Shown one piece after another: positions 17,252-30,151 of a DNA stretch of 37,684 nt. The notes below the pieces were generated by a model, which was not told the DNA's origin, did not search any database, and worked only from the letters and a program-made list of their open reading frames with translations. This stretch comes from Spirochaetales bacterium (GTDB lineage: Bacteria > Spirochaetota > Spirochaetia > DSM-2461): assembly GCA_028532905.1 (NCBI GenBank), contig JAQQAM010000229.1:1-37684 (forward strand), read 5' to 3'. A program made the position numbers and the translations under genes. Within the stretch, counting starts at the first letter, position 1. Every line of letters begins with the position of its first letter.

Positions 17252-18676
17252 ATGAACAAGAACAAACTGCTGCGTTTTGAAGAAGGGGACGTTCTGTTCC
17301 GCACCGGGGACAATACCCGGGAAATGTATATTATCCGTTCGGGCACCGTTAAGGTCATGGGCTATAAAAACGGTGAATACTTTCTCATAACCGAGCTGGG
17401 CAAGGGGCACTATATCGGGGAGATGTCCTTTCTCACCGGGATTCCCCGTTCCGCTACTGTTGTAGCCGGATCGCCGGTTCTTGTGAATGTGGTTTCCGCC
17501 GATCTTCTGAGCCAGGAGGATCTGGGACTAAGCAGCTGGGCCGTCAGTATTGCCAAGGTTCTGGTCAGGCGGATACGGAAAACAACGGAAATGCTGGGAA
17601 ACTATCTTCTCACCACTCCCCCTGAACCCGGGGGCAGAAGGAAAGAGGACAATGAAAGAGTTCCCTTTTCCGTTTTCTACAGCCCCATATGGGAGAACAG
17701 GCTCTATCTGAAAGGATTTCTCACAGAAGATTGCATTGATGAAATCAAAGAGAAAATCCGGACTCTGAGGATGAAGGAGATTAATCCGGTTATCCTCGAT
17801 TTCTCTGACGTGATTGATGTGGATAATCAGGGCATCAACTATCTGTATGAGCTCATTCAGTCCTACAATGTGAAAAACAATGAAATTCAGATAGAGAATA
17901 TCCAGCTGATCCGGGACAAGGTCATCTCCATCAAAGGGATTCAGGATATTGTTATATCCACCAAAACACCCATCAAACGGATTGAGGCCGGAGAGTATCT
18001 GATCCGTCAGGACAGTGTGGAAAACACCATGTATGTGGTTAAGTCCGGGAGTTTTTCCGTGGTCAGGCATGTGGACGGGCAGGAGTTGAAACTGGCCGGC
18101 ATCGAGGCCGGTGATGTGACCGGGGAGATGTCTCTGGTCAAGCAGGGCGTCCGTTCCGCATCGGTAATCGCAGACAAGTCCTCCATGGTCTACGTCATCG
18201 ACACAAAAGAGTTTTACAAGAATACATATAATGTCCCCACCTGGTTTATGGAACTCATCAAGGGGCTGGTGGACCGCCTGCGGGATACCAATGAAATGCT
18301 GGAGGAACGGATTACCGAGCAGATCCGGCAGGAAGAGGAGAAGGAGTGGCCCACTCCCTTCAGTATAATGGTGGACAGCCAGAATCCGGGGAAAATGAAA
18401 CTCCAGGGCATTATGACGATTCCCAACCTGCAGTATTTTACCCAGGCCGCCGAACTGGAGGTCCGCAGAGGAAGCCGGGAGCTGACGGTGAATCTGGGAA
18501 AAGTGGAAAGCGCCGACAGCCAGAGCATTTCCTATCTTCTGTACCTGTACAGGAAGCTTAAGGCCCGGAATGTTATTCTCAAATTTGAAAATACCCCCCG
18601 GGAACTGATGGAAATGTTCCGGAAACGGACCGTACGCTGGGGAGACAGGCCCGAAGAGACGGGCTCAGAAGACTAA
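17252..18676 (+). CDS. Duplicated cyclic-nucleotide-binding/STAS-like domain protein
   Basis: A 474-residue soluble protein made of two copies of cNMP-binding domain plus STAS-like domain. Copy 1: the cNMP domain spans about residues 5-120 with the phosphate cassette IGEMSFLTGIPRSATV; the STAS-like domain includes VILDFSDVIDVDNQGINYLYEL. Copy 2: the cNMP domain (IEAGEYLIRQDSVENTMYVVKSG, then TGEMSLVKQGVRSASV) and the STAS-like LTVNLGKVESADSQSISYLLYL. The Glu and Arg that hold the cyclic phosphate are present in both copies. The STAS phospho-serine position is Asn in copy 1 and Ser in copy 2, so only the second could be switched by phosphorylation. There is no DNA-binding domain. It is divergent from the TolC operon and shares its enhancer region. 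Confidence 0.85.
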   Translation: MNKNKLLRFEEGDVLFRTGDNTREMYIIRSGTVKVMGYKNGEYFLITELGKGHYIGEMSFLTGIPRSATVVAGSPVLVNVVSADLLSQEDLGLSSWAVSIAKVLVRRIRKTTEMLGNYLLTTPPEPGGRRKEDNERVPFSVFYSPIWENRLYLKGFLTEDCIDEIKEKIRTLRMKEINPVILDFSDVIDVDNQGINYLYELIQSYNVKNNEIQIENIQLIRDKVISIKGIQDIVISTKTPIKRIEAGEYLIRQDSVENTMYVVKSGSFSVVRHVDGQELKLAGIEAGDVTGEMSLVKQGVRSASVIADKSSMVYVIDTKEFYKNTYNVPTWFMELIKGLVDRLRDTNEMLEERITEQIRQEEEKEWPTPFSIMVDSQNPGKMKLQGIMTIPNLQYFTQAAELEVRRGSRELTVNLGKVESADSQSISYLLYLYRKLKARNVILKFENTPRELMEMFRKRTVRWGDRPEETGSED

Positions 18677-18771: not shown

Positions 18772-18825
18772 AACGTAAGAAACCCGGCTCCTATGGGGTG
18801 GCGGGTGAACAAAAAGGAGCACTCC

Positions 18826-19899
18826 ATGACCGGAAAGGAACGGATCGGGAATATTCTTCAGAGAAAACCCGTAGACCGGATAGGATTATATGAACACTTC
18901 TGGGATGATACGAAAAAATCCTGGATTCAGAAGGGAGAGATGAAGGAGTCCGAAAGCTATGCGGAACACTTCGGATTTGATATGGACGCCTTCTGGTCCT
19001 TTAATATGGTGGCTGACCTGGATAAAGAGCCGGAAGTGGTGGAGGAAACAGAAGAAACCATCCTGGTTCGGGACGGGAACGGCGCCCTGCTGCGGCGTCA
19101 TAAACTGCATGACAGCACTCCGGAGCATGTGGATTTTCTGGTAAAAGACCGGCTGGCCTGGGAAGAGCATATCAGACCCTTTCTGACCCCCGATCCCGCC
19201 CGGATAGATTTTGAAGGGTACCGGAAGGTCCGTCAGGAGTGCCTGGCTGCCGACCGCTTTTTCTGCTGGAGCGGTGTCAATGTGTTTGAGCTGATGCATC
19301 CTGTCTGCGGGCATGAGTATATGCTGATGGGCATGGCCCTCGATCCGGACTGGATACGGGAGATGGCCGACCTATACAGTACCCTGATGATCAATCTTCT
19401 GGAGATCCTTTTTGAAAAAGAGGGCGCCCCCGACGGCATATGGTTTTACGAGGATATGGGGTTCAAGGACAGACCCTTTATGAGTCCCGACATGTACAGA
19501 GAGCTGATTATGCCGGCGCATAAAAAGACCATAGACTGGGCTCATGGAAGGGGACTTCCTGTGATCATGCACTCCTGCGGTTTTGTGGAACCCCTCCTGC
19601 CCGGCATGGTGGAAGCGGGCATCGACTGTCTGCAGGTTATTGAGGTGAAGGCCGGAATGGATCCCTTGCGCATCCACAAACAGTACGGGTCCGAGCTCTC
19701 TCTTATGGGCGGGATTGATGTAAGAACCATCTGTTCCAATGAAAAATCTCAGATAGACAGAGAACTGGAGGGCAAAATCCCCTTGCTCAAAAAGGGATTC
19801 GGTTTTACTCTTCACAGTGATCACTCCATACCGGAAACGGTTGATCCTGAAACCTACCGCTACTTTATTGAACGGGGACTTGAACTGGGCAGATACTGA
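18826..19899 (+). CDS. Uroporphyrinogen decarboxylase (URO-D)-family protein, methyltransferase-like
   Basis: A 357-residue TIM-barrel protein of the URO-D superfamily. Typical features are the N-terminal MTGKERIGNILQRKPVDRIGL, the central DGIWFYEDMGFKDRPFMSPDMYRELIMPAHK, and VIMHSCGFVEPLLPGMVEAGIDCLQ with a zinc-type HSCG. It lacks the clear heme-pathway residues and context. It more likely belongs to the corrinoid/cobamide methyltransferase-like branch (MtaA/CmuA relatives) seen in anaerobes. The start ATG 18826 has AAGGAG 6 bp upstream; an earlier in-frame ATG at 18793 has none. The stop overlaps the LacI start by one base (TGATG), so they form an operon. Substrate unknown. A second, distant relative is at 28832-30151. 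Confidence 0.8.
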   Translation: MTGKERIGNILQRKPVDRIGLYEHFWDDTKKSWIQKGEMKESESYAEHFGFDMDAFWSFNMVADLDKEPEVVEETEETILVRDGNGALLRRHKLHDSTPEHVDFLVKDRLAWEEHIRPFLTPDPARIDFEGYRKVRQECLAADRFFCWSGVNVFELMHPVCGHEYMLMGMALDPDWIREMADLYSTLMINLLEILFEKEGAPDGIWFYEDMGFKDRPFMSPDMYRELIMPAHKKTIDWAHGRGLPVIMHSCGFVEPLLPGMVEAGIDCLQVIEVKAGMDPLRIHKQYGSELSLMGGIDVRTICSNEKSQIDRELEGKIPLLKKGFGFTLHSDHSIPETVDPETYRYFIERGLELGRY

Positions 19900-20900: not shown

Positions 20901-23900
20901 TTACATATCCGACGGGGTGGATACCAGTATATCTATTGCCTTCATAAACTTATTTTTATTTTCTTCATCAAAATCCATCAGTTTCTCCAGTCTGGACATC
21001 AGAGGTTTTACAAAGTGCTCCATCCTCTTGGATTTTCGCTCATAATCCGTTCTGTGATCCAGCATCATAACCTGACAGAGTGATGGATCACTGTACTCAC
21101 CCAGATATTGAAATCCCAGCTTTCCATACATGGCAACCTGCTTTTTATCATCAGCAAATACATCAAGAAATAAAGTCTCAGTATCTTCGACACGGGCATA
21201 AAGATACGCCAGAGTCATCAGTCCCATGGGAATTATGCTGCCCCGTTCCTTTTTCAGTACGGCCAGCCTGTCAATCTCTGCTGTTCTTTTTCCTTTTGTT
21301 ATTTCACTGATATCAAAGTGGTTGGAAATGGGAAGTTTTCCAGTCATACCCGAGGTTACACAGGAGGCCGTTCCAACCGGCTGAAGCCCTTTGTATGCCA
21401 GAACATGAAAGGCATGCTCATCTATGTCTCTGCGAATCGTCTCTTCCCGATAACCCATTTCTCCCACAAGTATCTTCCTTTGGATGAAAAACACATCATC
21501 CCGTTCCTCGGGAGTTTTTACATTAACAAAACGGATTTTCCATTTATCTCTGGTTTCCAGCGGAAGAGAGACAATAATCTCAGTCCCATGTTCATAGGTA
21601 CTGTTTATATGAATACGTCCCCCCATTTCAGTGAGTATCTGATGGGTGATACTCAGACCCAGTCCAGTTCCTTTTCCCGGTTCTTTTGTTGTAAAGAAAG
21701 GGTCAAATACCTGTTGAATATCCTGTTTGTCAATGCCGATCCCCGTATCCCGAATGGATATGCGGATGGAATAGGATGTCAGCCGGCTTTCCATATACAG
21801 ATGACCGCCGCCGGGCATAGATTGAACTGCATTAACAATAATATTCATAAAGACCTGTTGCAGACTGTTGTTATTCAGCTCTACAGGAGGCAGATCACCT
21901 AAATCCTGATGTATCTGGATTCCCTCGAAATTCATTCCCCTCTGTGCCAGGCGGATTGAATTGTGCAGTACATCGTTAATCTGCAGAAATTCAGCTACAC
22001 CCTTCTCTTTTCTGGAATAGTTTGTCAGGTCTTTGATCACAGAGGCCGCCGTTTCTGAATACTGGATAATATCGTTTGTATATTCGTATAGCTTTGATTC
22101 CGGTTCGAAACTATCAATCATGATTTCAGCAGTACCCAGAATTCCAGCCAGAGGGTTATTCAATTCATGGGCAATACCGGAGGCAAGAGTCCCGATTCCT
22201 GCCAGTTTTTCAGATTGGATCAGTTCGGCCTGCAGTTGTTTCTGCTGGGTGATATCCTGAAAAAACTCCAGAAACAGTTTCTGGTCGGATGGAACGGATA
22301 TGGGATAAAAATGGACATCGAAGATCAATTTCTTTTCCTGACTGGTCTGTTCGACAGAAAAAGGAAGCTGTGTATGAAGACAATCCTGTGCAAGACACTT
22401 TTCACAGGGATGTTCCCTGTTGAAATAGATGCGGTAGCACTTTTCATTTATCATTTCATCATAGTGCTTCTGGAAATATTTTGTTGCCGCAAAATTCACC
22501 ATAATAATGTTGTAATTGATATCCTGAATGGAAATAGGAGCGGTAATACCATCAAAGAAAGCTTCCAGTTTATTCCGGCTTAACACCAGTTCCTGATTCA
22601 GTACCTGCAGTTTATGCTGCTGGTTTTTCAATCGTTCAAAACTGATGGCATTCTCCAGAGTCACCGAGGAATGGTCGCTCAGAATTTCCAGAATATTAAG
22701 CTCAAACTGATTGTAGTAGGCTCTCTCTTTTCCGGGACCCATGATAATATAGCCATTGATTCTGTTTTTAAATATCAGGGGGAGAATAAGACTCGGTTTC
22801 AATTTCAGAACCTTTCCGTTCAGTTCCAGAGAAAAGGAAGGATACACTTTCTGAATCCTGCCGCCCCTTGAACCCGACAGCACTTTTTTCATTTCCTTAT
22901 TCTCTTTAAGGGAGAAAGGAAGTCTGCTCCCGAGCTCAACCCCCAATCCTCTCCATGATATGATCTGATAATTTCCTGCTGAATAATCATGAACAAGCAT
23001 GGTGCACCATTCCAGCTTGTAGGATTCCATTATTTTTTCTGTGGTTCTTGCCCCCAGTTCTGTCAGATCTACAATCGACTTCAGGCTATCCGAGAAATTC
23101 TTCAGATCCTGAAGAGTACTGAAGCGTCTTCCCAGATATAGTTTTTCAATAAATGACTTAGTCCCTTTTCTCAAAGGCTGAAAAGTAAGAGTCAGAATAA
23201 TACCAAGTAAAACGGATATGGCTGCAGGAGATGAAGTCTCACTCATTTTATCCACAAATCTCATCAGCAGCATAGATCCATAAAACAAAGTACTGCTGAC
23301 AATAATCAGAATAAAGTATAGGGTCATCCTCAGTACAAGTGCCGAGTAGTTCAAAAGCTGGTAATTATAGATGGCATAGAAAATAAAGATGGCATTGAGT
23401 GTGGTTCCCAGAATGTCAATAGGATATCTGCCAAGGGGCTCATACAGGTTTGCCAGAACACTGATCAGAAGTATTACCACACCGTAAATAGGGTATGTCA
23501 GTTTTCTCTTTAGAACCTTGTTTTCAGTTTTATATAACTCACGGCTCAGATGTATCAGGGCCAGGATCATATAAATATAGCAAAGGGAATAGATTAAAAT
23601 GGCAGACTGCCCAAGAAGATAATTAAACTCTGAACCTGTAAACCAGGCATTGTCAACGATGTCTCCCTTGAAGTTCTTATAAAGAGAGACGGCATAAACC
23701 AGATATCCTATGAACAGAGAGACTGTGTATCTTCTACCCTTATTTCCTGTAAGACTGAGCAGCGCATGAAACATTGTGATGGGTACACCCAGCATGCCCA
23801 CCATCATGATTCTGTTCCAGATCAGCGGTGTATAAACATTAAAATTTCCATGCATCATGAAAGATCCGAAACTCCAGATCATCATCATGAACATATACAG

Positions 23901-24014
23901 ATTGAATGGTTTCAGGGATTTATCAGTTCTGCCCTGATAGAGCCCAAAAACAGTAAATATGATGTATAGTATACAGCTCATGGCGGGAATAATAGTCGAC
24001 ATATTCAGTATCAA
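20901..24014 (-). CDS. 7TM-GAF-PAS histidine kinase fused to a FeeM/LuxI-like acyltransferase domain
   Basis: A 1037-residue protein. Residues 1 to about 290 hold an N-terminal block of about eight membrane helices of the histidine-kinase 7TM sensor type. A GAF-like domain follows (about 310-480), then a coiled coil, a PAS domain (about 500-600) with an unusual Cys cluster (PCEKCLAQDC), and a HisKA domain with His616 (GIAHELNNPLAG). The HATPase has NNSLQQVFMNIIVNAVQSMPG, DTGIGI and GTGLGLSI. From about residue 826 there is an extra domain: VFFIQRKILVGEMGYREET, DIDEHAFHVLAYKGLQPVGT, EIDRLAVLKKERG, and MYGKLGFQYLG. This is the GNAT-like pattern of N-acyl amino acid synthases (FeeM) and autoinducer synthases. 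TTG 24014 has GAGGA upstream; ATG 24002 is an alternative. No receiver is present; the divergent HD-GYP regulator is the likely partner. Confidence 0.88.
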   Translation of the reverse strand: MILNMSTIIPAMSCILYIIFTVFGLYQGRTDKSLKPFNLYMFMMMIWSFGSFMMHGNFNVYTPLIWNRIMMVGMLGVPITMFHALLSLTGNKGRRYTVSLFIGYLVYAVSLYKNFKGDIVDNAWFTGSEFNYLLGQSAILIYSLCYIYMILALIHLSRELYKTENKVLKRKLTYPIYGVVILLISVLANLYEPLGRYPIDILGTTLNAIFIFYAIYNYQLLNYSALVLRMTLYFILIIVSSTLFYGSMLLMRFVDKMSETSSPAAISVLLGIILTLTFQPLRKGTKSFIEKLYLGRRFSTLQDLKNFSDSLKSIVDLTELGARTTEKIMESYKLEWCTMLVHDYSAGNYQIISWRGLGVELGSRLPFSLKENKEMKKVLSGSRGGRIQKVYPSFSLELNGKVLKLKPSLILPLIFKNRINGYIIMGPGKERAYYNQFELNILEILSDHSSVTLENAISFERLKNQQHKLQVLNQELVLSRNKLEAFFDGITAPISIQDINYNIIMVNFAATKYFQKHYDEMINEKCYRIYFNREHPCEKCLAQDCLHTQLPFSVEQTSQEKKLIFDVHFYPISVPSDQKLFLEFFQDITQQKQLQAELIQSEKLAGIGTLASGIAHELNNPLAGILGTAEIMIDSFEPESKLYEYTNDIIQYSETAASVIKDLTNYSRKEKGVAEFLQINDVLHNSIRLAQRGMNFEGIQIHQDLGDLPPVELNNNSLQQVFMNIIVNAVQSMPGGGHLYMESRLTSYSIRISIRDTGIGIDKQDIQQVFDPFFTTKEPGKGTGLGLSITHQILTEMGGRIHINSTYEHGTEIIVSLPLETRDKWKIRFVNVKTPEERDDVFFIQRKILVGEMGYREETIRRDIDEHAFHVLAYKGLQPVGTASCVTSGMTGKLPISNHFDISEITKGKRTAEIDRLAVLKKERGSIIPMGLMTLAYLYARVEDTETLFLDVFADDKKQVAMYGKLGFQYLGEYSDPSLCQVMMLDHRTDYERKSKRMEHFVKPLMSRLEKLMDFDEENKNKFMKAIDILVSTPSDM

Positions 24015-24072
24015 TGTTCCGGATCCTCAAGAAAGATTTATTGAAATATTCACTTTTATCAAATTAGTCTGA

Positions 24073-24639
24073 ATGATATCATATAATTCAGATATGGCTT
24101 ATTATTTATTCTCTATTATATCTTTTTTATGCCTTCTGATCTCTGATTATCTGCAGATCATACAAAAAAGAATTCCCATTATATTGTTCTCAATAGCGGG
24201 ATATGGCGGTATTACAGCATCTCTCATCTTTTCCTCAATCTCTTACTGGAATACAGAGGGATATTCAGTAATTACCGGTCTGAAAGCTCTGTTTCTTGTA
24301 TTCAGTTTTGCGCTCCTTTTGTATCAGCTGTTTCTGGAAATCCCTCTCTCGCCCCAAATACAGAAAACCCAGGAGAGAATGGCTGTGCAGCAGGGAAGCT
24401 ACAGTCATGTCAGACATCCTGCTTTCTATCCTTTTCTTCTGCTTACGGCGGCTCTGTCTTTACTGGTAAACAACCGGCATTTCATACCCATAGCCTTGTT
24501 AATGAATGTTTTGAATTTTATCCTGATTGTGATTGAAGATATATTTATTTTTCCGGAGGTTTTTGATAATTATTCTGATTACAAGAAAAATGTGCCCTTT
24601 CTTGTTCCAGACTTGAAACGATATCCAAGGCAGGACTGA
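24073..24639 (+). CDS. ICMT/PEMT-like integral membrane methyltransferase
   Basis: A 188-residue membrane protein with about five helices. The C-terminal half carries the isoprenylcysteine carboxyl methyltransferase-type motifs: GSYSHVRHPAFYPFLLL (G-x-Y-x-x-x-RHP-x-Y) and VIEDIFIFPEVFDNYSDYKKNVPFLVP (E-x(6-8)-F-x-x-x-Y-x-x-Y-x-x-x-VP). In known relatives these bind S-adenosylmethionine and act on lipids or lipidated carboxyl groups. No Shine-Dalgarno precedes ATG 24073. A TATAAT at 24082-24087 lies 6 bp before the ATG at 24094, suggesting a leaderless start there (181 residues). One base separates it from the HD-GYP gene, so they are co-transcribed. Confidence 0.78.
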   Translation: MISYNSDMAYYLFSIISFLCLLISDYLQIIQKRIPIILFSIAGYGGITASLIFSSISYWNTEGYSVITGLKALFLVFSFALLLYQLFLEIPLSPQIQKTQERMAVQQGSYSHVRHPAFYPFLLLTAALSLLVNNRHFIPIALLMNVLNFILIVIEDIFIFPEVFDNYSDYKKNVPFLVPDLKRYPRQD

Positions 24640-24640
24640 T

Positions 24641-25699
24641 ATGCTTCAACACAGAAAAATTCTGATTATAGATGATGATGTTTCTCTGCAGAAAGTACTG
24701 GGTATACAGCTTGAGAACGGCGGCTACGAAAGCTCTGTTGCAGAGTCCGGACAAAGAGCTCTTGAACTACTGGCAGAGGGCTCTTATCAGCCTGAATGTA
24801 TACTTTCTGATATCAAAATGCCCGGATTAAGCGGCCTTGATCTGCTGCCTCTGCTGAAGGAACAGTATCCTCTGGTGCCGGTCGTTATGCTGACAGCACA
24901 TACAGACCTTGAAACAGGACTGAAGGCTATGCGGTCGGGAGCCTATGATTATATTACTAAACCTGTCAGGCGGCAGACTCTTTTTGAAACCATAGAAAGA
25001 GCCTTGCAGTATTATGATGTTGAGCAGGAAAATAACAAGCTCAAAGAGGAAAACCGCCGCTATCAGGAGAATCTTGAAAGGAATATTGAAGAGAGAACCA
25101 GAGAGGTTATCGATGCCTATCAGGCCTTAAAAGATACCAACCTGGCTGTTGTTAAAGTCCTCGCAGAAACCATTGAAGCTAAGGATCAGTACACTAGAGG
25201 GCACTGCAACCGGGTCAGAATGCTGTCCAGAGAACTGGCTTCACATTACAACCTGAGTGAACAGGAGATAGAAGTTCTTGAATATGGTGCTCTGCTCCAT
25301 GACATTGGAAAAATAGGTATTCCTGAAAAACTGCTGAACAAATGCGATATTCTGGATAAAGAGGAAAAAGCTGTTTTCGAAGATCATACGGTTATCGGAG
25401 AAAAGATTCTGAGTATTATCGAGTTCTTTAATCCTTGCCTGACCATAGTTCGGCATCACCATGAGCGTTGGGACGGAAGCGGATATCCTGACGGTTTGAA
25501 AGGTGAAGAGATTTCTCTTCTTTCCAGAATTGTACAAGTTTGCGACTCTTTTGATGCTATGACATCAACCAGACCCTACAGAGGAGAACTTCCTCTGGAT
25601 GAGGCTCTCGGAGAACTGAAAAAGGGCAGAGAATCTCAATTTGACGCCGATATTGTTGATCTGTTCATCGCACAGAAGATCTACCGCTGTGTGTTATAG
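24641..25699 (+). CDS. Response regulator with HD-GYP c-di-GMP phosphodiesterase output
   Basis: A 352-residue protein. Receiver, residues 1-125: DDDV acidic pair, phosphoacceptor in CILSDIKMPGLSGL, Thr in MLTAHTD, Lys in YITKPV. A coiled-coil linker (EQENNKLKEENRRYQENLERNIEERTREV) joins an HD-GYP domain. That domain has YTRGHCNRV, LLHDIGKIGIPEKLL, DHTVIGEKIL, HHHERWDGSGYPDGLKGEEI and the family end. All metal-binding residues and the GYP loop are intact, so c-di-GMP hydrolysis is expected. It lies 1 bp after the methyltransferase gene and is divergent from the kinase, whose only plausible partner in the window it is. Confidence 0.93.
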   Translation: MLQHRKILIIDDDVSLQKVLGIQLENGGYESSVAESGQRALELLAEGSYQPECILSDIKMPGLSGLDLLPLLKEQYPLVPVVMLTAHTDLETGLKAMRSGAYDYITKPVRRQTLFETIERALQYYDVEQENNKLKEENRRYQENLERNIEERTREVIDAYQALKDTNLAVVKVLAETIEAKDQYTRGHCNRVRMLSRELASHYNLSEQEIEVLEYGALLHDIGKIGIPEKLLNKCDILDKEEKAVFEDHTVIGEKILSIIEFFNPCLTIVRHHHERWDGSGYPDGLKGEEISLLSRIVQVCDSFDAMTSTRPYRGELPLDEALGELKKGRESQFDADIVDLFIAQKIYRCVL

Positions 25700-28778: not shown

Positions 28779-28831
28779 AATCTTGTAAACAAAAAAGTAC
28801 AAAAAAAACGGAATTGTTGATAAGGGAAAAT

Positions 28832-30151
28832 ATGGCACATGCAGAAAAGGTGAAAGATCCTTCCATGGAACAGACGGCTGCCGGATTGAGCACAGTCCGC
28901 GGCATCGATACAAAACTGAATTTCACTGATGCGGAGATATCAGTACTGCGCGAACTGGCTTTAAAAGTCGCCGAGCTGGCGGCTCATCCCCAGGAGGCGG
29001 AGAAAGCGGCTCTCTGGACCGCTCATAATGATCTGGAAGAGACAAGACCCCTTATTTTTGCGGATCCTGAGAACGGCTGGAATGAAATCATTACACAGGA
29101 TCAGATGCTCTGCAGTGATCCCCTGGCCCGGGTCTGGGAAATGCACCTGAGAAAAGAAATTTTCTGGGGAACCGAAATGGGAGATGACAAGGTCATTGAG
29201 AATTATTTCAATGTTCCCTGGAGTTATGATGATACCGGCTGGGGACTGCATGAGGAAAAAATAGGCGGAGAAGACGGGGGAAGCTACACCTGGAAAACAC
29301 CTATAGAAGAGTACGAGAGAGATTTTGAAAATCTCCGTTTTCCTGAAATCCGACTGGATACAGAAGAGTCTGATAAAACTCTGGAATATGCTCAGCAGAT
29401 TTTCGGGGATATTCTGAAGGTCCGCCGGAAAGGAATCTGGTGGTGGACTCTGGGAATGACCTGGGACTTTATCAATCTGAGAGGTCTTGAGAATCTGATG
29501 ATGGATCTGTACCTCAATCCCGAATGGGTGCATCGTCTGATGGCCTTTTTAAGGGATGGTACCCTCAAAAAACTGGATTATCTGGAGAGTCACGGTCTGC
29601 TTTCTCTGAATACAGAAGGCAGCTATGTCGGTTCCGGCGGTTTCGGCTGGACAAAAGAGCTTCCGGGAGCAGAGTTCAATCCGGATCAGGTCCGCTGTCA
29701 GGATATGTGGGGGTTTGCAGAAAGTCAGGAAACCGTCGGCATTGATCCGGCCATGTTCAACGAGTTTATTCTTCCCTATCAGCTGCCTATTCTGGACCGG
29801 TTTGGCCTGAACTGCTACGGCTGCTGTGAACCCATTGATAAACGCTGGGACTATGTAAAAACCATACCCCGCCTCCGGAGGGTTTCCATATCCCCCTGGG
29901 CTGACAGAGACGCTTCCCGGGAACTTCTGGGAGGAGAGTATATTATCTCGATGAAACCCAATCCTGCCGATCTGGCGCAGCCCCGGATGGATGTAGAGGG
30001 TGTCAGAGCCTCTATCAGGGAGGAGCTAAAGGCTGTCAAAGGGGGTGTGGTGGAAGTCCTGATGAAGGATAATCACACACTTGGTCATAATCCCGGGAAT
30101 ATTACTGCCTGGTGCAAAATCGTGAGAGAAGAGATAGACCGCCTATGGTAA
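28832..30151 (+). CDS. URO-D superfamily protein of a sugar transport operon
   Basis: A 439-residue protein. It shows URO-D superfamily features in a longer frame: LKVAELAAHPQEAEKAALWTAHNDLEETRPL, SYVGSGGFGWTKELPG, and the C-terminal ILDRFGLNCYGCCEPIDKRWDYVKTIP, where a Cys-rich GCCE replaces the HSCG of the other copy. It ends EVLMKDNHTLGHNPGNITAWCKIVREEI. The first 60 residues are an extension. ATG 28832 has AAGGG 6 bp upstream. The stop overlaps the ABC ATPase start (ATGGTAA), so the two are translationally coupled. Such URO-D-like proteins occur repeatedly beside carbohydrate transporters in anaerobes, but their reaction is not known to me. Confidence 0.72.
   Translation: MAHAEKVKDPSMEQTAAGLSTVRGIDTKLNFTDAEISVLRELALKVAELAAHPQEAEKAALWTAHNDLEETRPLIFADPENGWNEIITQDQMLCSDPLARVWEMHLRKEIFWGTEMGDDKVIENYFNVPWSYDDTGWGLHEEKIGGEDGGSYTWKTPIEEYERDFENLRFPEIRLDTEESDKTLEYAQQIFGDILKVRRKGIWWWTLGMTWDFINLRGLENLMMDLYLNPEWVHRLMAFLRDGTLKKLDYLESHGLLSLNTEGSYVGSGGFGWTKELPGAEFNPDQVRCQDMWGFAESQETVGIDPAMFNEFILPYQLPILDRFGLNCYGCCEPIDKRWDYVKTIPRLRRVSISPWADRDASRELLGGEYIISMKPNPADLAQPRMDVEGVRASIREELKAVKGGVVEVLMKDNHTLGHNPGNITAWCKIVREEIDRLW

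Follow-up and report, generated by a model that had tools for sequence, protein, structure and literature searches.

A membrane methyltransferase encoded beside a kinase-borne acyltransferase in spirochaetes: a candidate methylating enzyme of a lipid-signal module

The methyltransferase gene and its neighbours

The gene considered here lies in a window of 37,684 nucleotides, the whole stretch of DNA that was analysed, on contig JAQQAM010000229.1 of a Spirochaetales bacterium. It encodes a predicted membrane methyltransferase, diverges from a gene for a large histidine kinase, and is followed directly by a gene for a response regulator (Table 1). The methyltransferase probably starts at the ATG at 24094 instead of at 24073, because its relatives begin there and because a perfect TATAAT on the methyltransferase strand, six bases ahead of 24094, would otherwise be intragenic. 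The initial annotation had described the kinase and methyltransferase genes as divergent across 58 bp and had placed the methyltransferase stop codon 1 bp ahead of the HD-GYP regulator. The orientation and the second spacing stand, and the first spacing becomes 79 bp with the later start.

Table 1. Features of the window, with coordinates, strand and basis
Feature	Position	Strand	Size	Remarks
Listed ORF	24073-24639	+	188 aa	ORF calling
ICMT/PEMT-superfamily membrane methyltransferase, probable extent	24094..24639	+	181 aa	start as in relatives
GxY...RHP motif	24394..24420	+		G-S-Y-S-H-V-R-H-P; conserved 31/31
E-D motif	24535..24540	+		D invariant 31/31
Putative divergent promoter region, kinase/methyltransferase	24015..24093	.		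TATAAT at 24082-24087
Histidine kinase with C-terminal FeeM-type acyltransferase domain	20901..24014	-	1037 aa	TTG start, alignment-supported
HisKA_7TM sensor domain of kinase	23349..23981	-		domain search
FeeM-type N-acyltransferase domain of kinase	21096..21431	-		Pfam match residues 862-973; modelled region 20904-21560
Response regulator, HD-GYP output	24641..25699	+		receiver 24659-24994, HD-GYP 25154-25654

A TATAAT stands 6-7 bases upstream of the methyltransferase start codon in the window and in three other loci (L042, L047 and L048), and a box so near the start suggests a leaderless transcript, as predicted from sequence. On the kinase strand, a TATAMT box keeps a constant position in most Sphaerochaeta-type loci. 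A conserved bidirectional promoter made of overlapping divergent -10 boxes was considered and set aside as too weak, at 17 of 31 against 9.6 expected from mononucleotide shuffles, a comparison in which the intergenic sequence of the window was entered 3 bases short at its methyltransferase end. A consensus promoter scan of the intergenic region returned fewer promoter-like sites than its shuffles.

The kinase has the architecture 7TM-GAF-PAS-HisKA-HATPase, with GAF and PAS matches that lie below cut-off, and ends in a FeeM-type domain. Enzymes of the FeeM family join an acyl group to an amino acid. The domain of the window scores 36.1 bits against Pfam FeeM (PF21926; cut-off 27), and all 27 members of the domain family match that model at E values of at most 0.01. 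FeeM itself (2g0b) is the top solved structure for the model of the domain (Foldseek E 2.7e-11). In VIA-align, 2g0b reaches Z 17.8 (167 aligned, rmsd 2.4) and is nearly tied with a GNAT at Z 16.8, and sequence searches of the PDB with the domain give a GNAT as best match. A loop motif that we take to be the acetyl-CoA loop of ordinary GNATs is absent from its usual place in 27 of 27 FeeM-type domains, the sole pattern match, in the window, lying elsewhere. An ordinary acetyl-CoA GNAT is less likely because this loop is missing there, and its absence is compatible with the predicted transfer of a long acyl chain to an amino acid. In the regulator of the window, the HD-GYP catalytic motifs are intact (HDIGKIGI and HHERWDGSGYP). 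Kinase and regulator motifs are likewise intact in six of six sets (the window and five relatives), with like HD/GYP motifs in all.

Near the module, positions 17252-18676 of the window encode a protein that has cyclic-nucleotide-binding and STAS domains, each in two stretches. Two ORFs at 18793-19899 and 28814-30151 were named, by eye from the sequence, as uroporphyrinogen-decarboxylase/methyltransferase-like; by the same kind of reading they lie near a LacI-type regulator, a ROK-type protein and a sugar ABC transporter.

Family and fold of the methyltransferase

Two motifs, G[STA]Y-xxx-RHP and [EQ]D-xxx-FP-xx-F, are both kept in all 31 aligned members of the methyltransferase subfamily, the window protein included. 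The gene is real, and this conservation shows it to be under constraint. Relatives share 19-47% pairwise identity with the window protein. In a profile alignment to Ma-ICMT (4a2n), RHP falls on RHP and the acidic pair on EE, with the D of the E-D motif opposite the second E of 'KEEELL'.

The window protein scores 21.8 bits with Pfam ICMT (PF04140), slightly below the cut-off of 24, and 30.2 bits with the NCBIfam isoprenylcysteine methyltransferase model NF040696, which has a cut-off of 160 and matches 5 of 31 subfamily members at E values of at most 0.01. With both curated cut-offs missed, a true protein isoprenylcysteine methyltransferase was rejected. With Pfam PEMT (PF04191) the window protein scores 16.8 bits, under the cut-off of 25; relatives linked to GH3-family genes (see below) score 28.0 and 30.6 bits, over this cut-off and under that of ICMT. 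LmtA and MddA were also rejected as identities, the window protein lying far under cut-off (for the LmtA lipid A phosphate methyltransferase model, 22.1 bits against 325).

The AlphaFold model of the methyltransferase has a pLDDT of 92, and its top structural matches are delta(14)-sterol reductase, Ma-ICMT and an insect ICMT. Z scores are 10.8 for 4quv_B (121 aligned, rmsd 2.8), 9.2 for Ma-ICMT (143 aligned, rmsd 4.0) and 8.9 for 5vg9 (128 aligned, rmsd 3.5), all below 13 and thus weak for a helical bundle; the best Foldseek E value is 0.14. Among the 50 structural matches listed, rows 1-4, 6 and 7 have what we take to be the ICMT / sterol-reductase / 5-alpha-reductase fold.

Because the ICMT, PEMT, LmtA and MddA cut-offs are missed, and because such Z scores are no proof for helical bundles, we name the protein at the level of the superfamily. 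Judged by these profiles, it is best placed as a separate subfamily of the ICMT/PEMT superfamily, outside the ICMT family proper. It has C-terminal motifs in common with ICMT (including Ma-ICMT), LmtA and PEMT and may share their fold, but it misses their curated cut-offs and belongs to a clade of its own on a long stem. The name 'ICMT-like' in the initial annotation therefore captured the superfamily core, with its GxY...RHP and E-D motifs, and overstated the relation to ICMT. A subfamily of known and unrelated substrate, which the same annotation had named as evidence against its hypothesis, was not found: the protein reaches no curated NCBIfam cut-off for a family whose substrate is known. 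The ICMT/PEMT fold is used for O-, N- and S-methylation, so esterification of a carboxyl group cannot be read from the fold.

Conservation of the gene set and exchange of the synthase

When 84,980 species genomes were scanned with an alignment of the FeeM-type domain (A1), 45 loci were found. Their titles name spirochaetes, apart from L052, from a Solidesulfovibrio MAG, and L056, titled only 'bacterium'. The scan finds genomes that match two short peptide patterns and so misses remoter cases. Six of the 45 loci are uninformative, five of them cut at the kinase (L044, L056, L058, L078 and L082) and L052 apparently chimeric. Five others (L062, L068, L049, L050 and L054) are apparently contigs that also occur among the phylum genomes described below (G numbers), and each was counted once.

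The methyltransferase gene diverges from the FeeM-kinase gene in 36 of the 39 informative database loci (37 of 40 with the window), and the gap between them in the database loci is mostly 56-61 bp. The HD-GYP regulator comes next in 33 of 36 loci; L043 reaches the end of its contig at this point, and L085 and L086 have no such gene. Co-occurrence of the three genes across genomes, which the initial annotation had put forward as a check, is thus borne out. The same annotation had held that frequent kinase-acyltransferases without the methyltransferase would count against it; they make up three of the 40 informative loci. At these three (L049, L050 and L054) the regulator is present and the methyltransferase is not beside the FeeM-kinase. 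Two of the genomes behind them, G047 and G068, carry a gene of the subfamily elsewhere, and the third, G028 (83% complete), carries none.

Neighbouring ORF families were counted at 44 loci, from about 7 kb upstream to 5 kb downstream. The kinase was found 44 times, the regulator and the methyltransferase 35 times each (the ORF picking missed one) and the next commonest family 8 times. The module is conserved while its surroundings vary. L085 and L086 combine kinase and methyltransferase without an HD-GYP regulator, and the HD-GYP output may be an exchangeable part of the module.

L052 was rejected as a non-spirochaete case and is probably an assembly or binning chimera, in which a different kinase front has been joined to a FeeM end and neighbour genes that are both of spirochaete type. 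We set it aside because its acyltransferase end and neighbours match L051, L053 and L055 and because all subfamily scores in that genome are at most 23 bits. In 198 genomes of the phylum of this MAG, no member of the subfamily was found, with a best score of 47.6 bits.

The methyltransferase subfamily also occurs with a different synthase. When 296 genomes of the spirochaete phylum were searched with a methyltransferase profile (A2), nine held a member scoring at least 80 bits, a line set after we had seen the gap between 80.4 and 45.7 bits. In three of the nine (the window genome, G224 and G261) the member adjoins a FeeM-kinase. In four (G003, G039, G063 and G271) the methyltransferase gene is followed directly by a gene for a GH3-family protein and then by one for a kinase of 993-1258 aa. 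In G047 and G068 it lies away from both FeeM-kinase and GH3. The GH3 subfamily itself is found in five of the 296 genomes, the four just named and G047, in which it is split over two frames and is once more followed by a kinase gene. A module of one kind or the other is present in 10 of the 296 genomes, the methyltransferase subfamily in nine and both in nine (Fisher 2e-16, a value that ignores descent). On the strength of the 37 of 40 loci and the GH3 arrangement, a chance neighbour was rejected.

At L091, L092, L087 and L088, from four spirochaete genomes, the order methyltransferase, GH3, large sensor kinase has the look of an operon. The two overlapping frames of the GH3 gene of G047 (L125, 7977-9592) reflect either a real break or an assembly error.

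The assignment to GH3 comes from several searches. L002 and L006 pass the Pfam cut-offs, with 45.6 and 39.2 bits for PF03321 and 38 and 43.5 bits for GH3_M; L088 is over cut-off for GH3_M and GH3_C and below it, at 17.6, for the N-terminal GH3 model. All seven distinct PDB sequences matched by the GH3 profile are plant GH3 acyl-amido synthetases. Enzymes of the FeeM and GH3 types have unrelated folds. Among NCBIfam models, the one closest to the GH3 protein is OlsH, at 37.2 bits against a cut-off of 620. GH3 enzymes join acyl groups to amino acids and, as described in the accessible part of the source, N-acyl ornithine is made in a planctomycete by OlsH, a GH3-like enzyme (PMC12493201).

What stays with either synthase is the methyltransferase subfamily and the type of sensor. 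A tree was made of 37 methyltransferases (31 linked to FeeM-kinases, four linked to GH3 and two unlinked) and 18 other ICMT/PEMT proteins, and the 37 form one clade with support of 100/99 and a long stem separating them from the 18. The unlinked methyltransferases of G047 and G068 group with the GH3-linked ones, and the FeeM-kinases of these two genomes may, on that grouping, use the methyltransferase in trans. The 7TM domains of 12 FeeM-kinases and five GH3-kinases were compared with 85 other HisKA_7TM domains (87 of the hits taken, two dropped for frame). Each of the 12 FeeM-kinase sensors hits a GH3-kinase sensor better than any background domain, and the reverse holds for all five GH3-kinase sensors. 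In a quick tree made without bootstrap, the 17 fall on one side of a branch with an SH-aLRT of 96.

A proposed lipid-signal module

Two unrelated families of acyl-amino-acid enzymes, one methyltransferase subfamily and one sensor clade point to a methylated acyl-amino-acid signal. The occurrence of one methyltransferase subfamily and one receptor clade with either synthase is accounted for best by a methyltransferase that acts on the kind of product common to both and a receptor that reads what results. We postulate that the methyltransferase carries out the methylation step in a lipid-signal module that is complete in itself, and we give the whole mechanism a probability of about one half. 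The FeeM-type domain of the kinase would couple an amino acid to a fatty acyl chain, as its family membership predicts. The methyltransferase would then cap the acyl amino acid, most likely at its free carboxyl group, giving a methyl ester. Carboxyl methylation removes the charge of an N-acyl amino acid, and the product would be neutral and soluble in the membrane. The 7TM domain of the kinase would sense the finished compound and cause phosphorylation of the neighbouring HD-GYP regulator, which, with its motifs intact, is predicted to degrade c-di-GMP. A GH3-type amide synthetase encoded as a separate protein takes the place of the FeeM domain in other spirochaetes, with methyltransferase subfamily and sensor clade unchanged. 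The GH3 arrangement has outputs of other kinds and, with no HD-GYP regulator at L085 and L086, the lowering of c-di-GMP is not a general feature. The initial annotation had suggested a similar pathway, in which an acyl amino acid is made, methylated and sensed and c-di-GMP is then lowered. Its gene association is upheld by the loci counted above, with the GH3 arrangement as independent support; the identity of the ligand, the atom that is methylated and the effect on c-di-GMP are what we infer.

The strongest of the alternatives, though in our view an unlikely one, is that the head group of an aminolipid is N-methylated. Here the methyltransferase would methylate the nitrogen of the acyl-amino-acid lipid, or another head-group atom, to give a modified aminolipid, and the 7TM kinase would monitor membrane composition with no diffusible signal involved. 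The GH3-linked methyltransferases do pass the Pfam PEMT cut-off, OlsH is the NCBIfam model closest to their GH3 protein, though with a score far under the cut-off, and OlsH stands in an operon with an N-methyltransferase, OlsG, according to the part of the source available to us (PMC12493201). However, the window methyltransferase scores higher with ICMT than with PEMT, and a synthase that is fused to a sensor kinase, or held in tight order with one, in modules as rare as 10 in 296 genomes, fits this account poorly.

The methyltransferase could also make a fatty-acid methyl ester signal, as PhcB does, with FeeM or GH3 as a separate step or an output of the kinase. In the descriptions of the Ralstonia system available to us, PhcB makes the methyl ester of a hydroxy fatty acid, which is sensed by the histidine kinase PhcS. 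We consider this improbable for the spirochaetes, as it leaves unexplained why two unrelated families of acyl-amino-acid enzymes lie beside the same methyltransferase subfamily. There is still less to be said for a methyltransferase-like protein that lacks catalytic activity and serves the 7TM kinase as a membrane partner. The strict adjacency of the two genes and the strong divergence of the protein would suit such a role, but the RHP and acidic-pair motifs are kept in 31 of 31 members. Least credible is co-location without a common pathway, in a gene set inherited together by chance, since a Mantel r of 0.86 between methyltransferase and FeeM distances over 21 loci agrees with it but the flanks vary while the set stays, and the subfamily recurs in a tight gene order that includes another synthase.

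The proposed module of synthase, methyltransferase, 7TM kinase and regulator resembles known systems in layout. In the RpfF/RpfC/RpfG (DSF) system, a signal synthase, a sensor kinase and an HD-GYP response regulator are encoded together, as in the spirochaetes. In contrast to Rpf, the spirochaete synthase is of the FeeM type and forms part of the kinase, the sensor is HisKA_7TM and a methyltransferase is added. The Ralstonia PhcB/PhcS/PhcR set, as far as its descriptions were accessible, shares the combination of methyltransferase and kinase, but PhcB acts on a hydroxy fatty acid whereas the spirochaete set includes an acyl-amino-acid synthase. Unlike both, the spirochaete module has a form with another synthase, and it combines a kinase-borne synthase with a membrane methyltransferase. 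N-acyl alanine methyl esters (NAMEs) belong to the chemical class of the proposed end product; they are known as compounds, from the alphaproteobacterium Roseovarius, and the portion of the report at hand states that the synthase genes were not found (PMC11580390). The OlsH-OlsG-OlsI ornithine lipid operon of Singulisphaera combines a GH3-like acyl-amino-acid synthetase with a methyltransferase, as does the GH3 arrangement, but in the accessible part of that report it makes a bulk N-methylated membrane lipid (PMC12493201). The terms 'histidine kinase' and 'FeeM' are absent from the paper (PMC12493201). A literature search that covered few of the subscription journals found no paper on a module like the one proposed here.

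We speculate that methylated N-acyl amino acids form a class of cell-cell signals of the spirochaetes' own, in which the kinase carries the synthase, and FeeM and GH3 are swapped while methyltransferase and 7TM clade are kept. We hold this broader idea tentatively, at odds somewhat short of even. If it is true, there would be a spirochaete lipid-signal system for which genes, order of enzymes and receptor can all be named. Replacement of the synthase around a fixed methyltransferase and receptor would narrow the chemistry of the ligand by genomics alone. The species with the module include Sphaerochaeta halotolerans strain 4-11, whose methyltransferase gene lies at 6924-7436 of L075 and which is recorded as a strain and not as a MAG.
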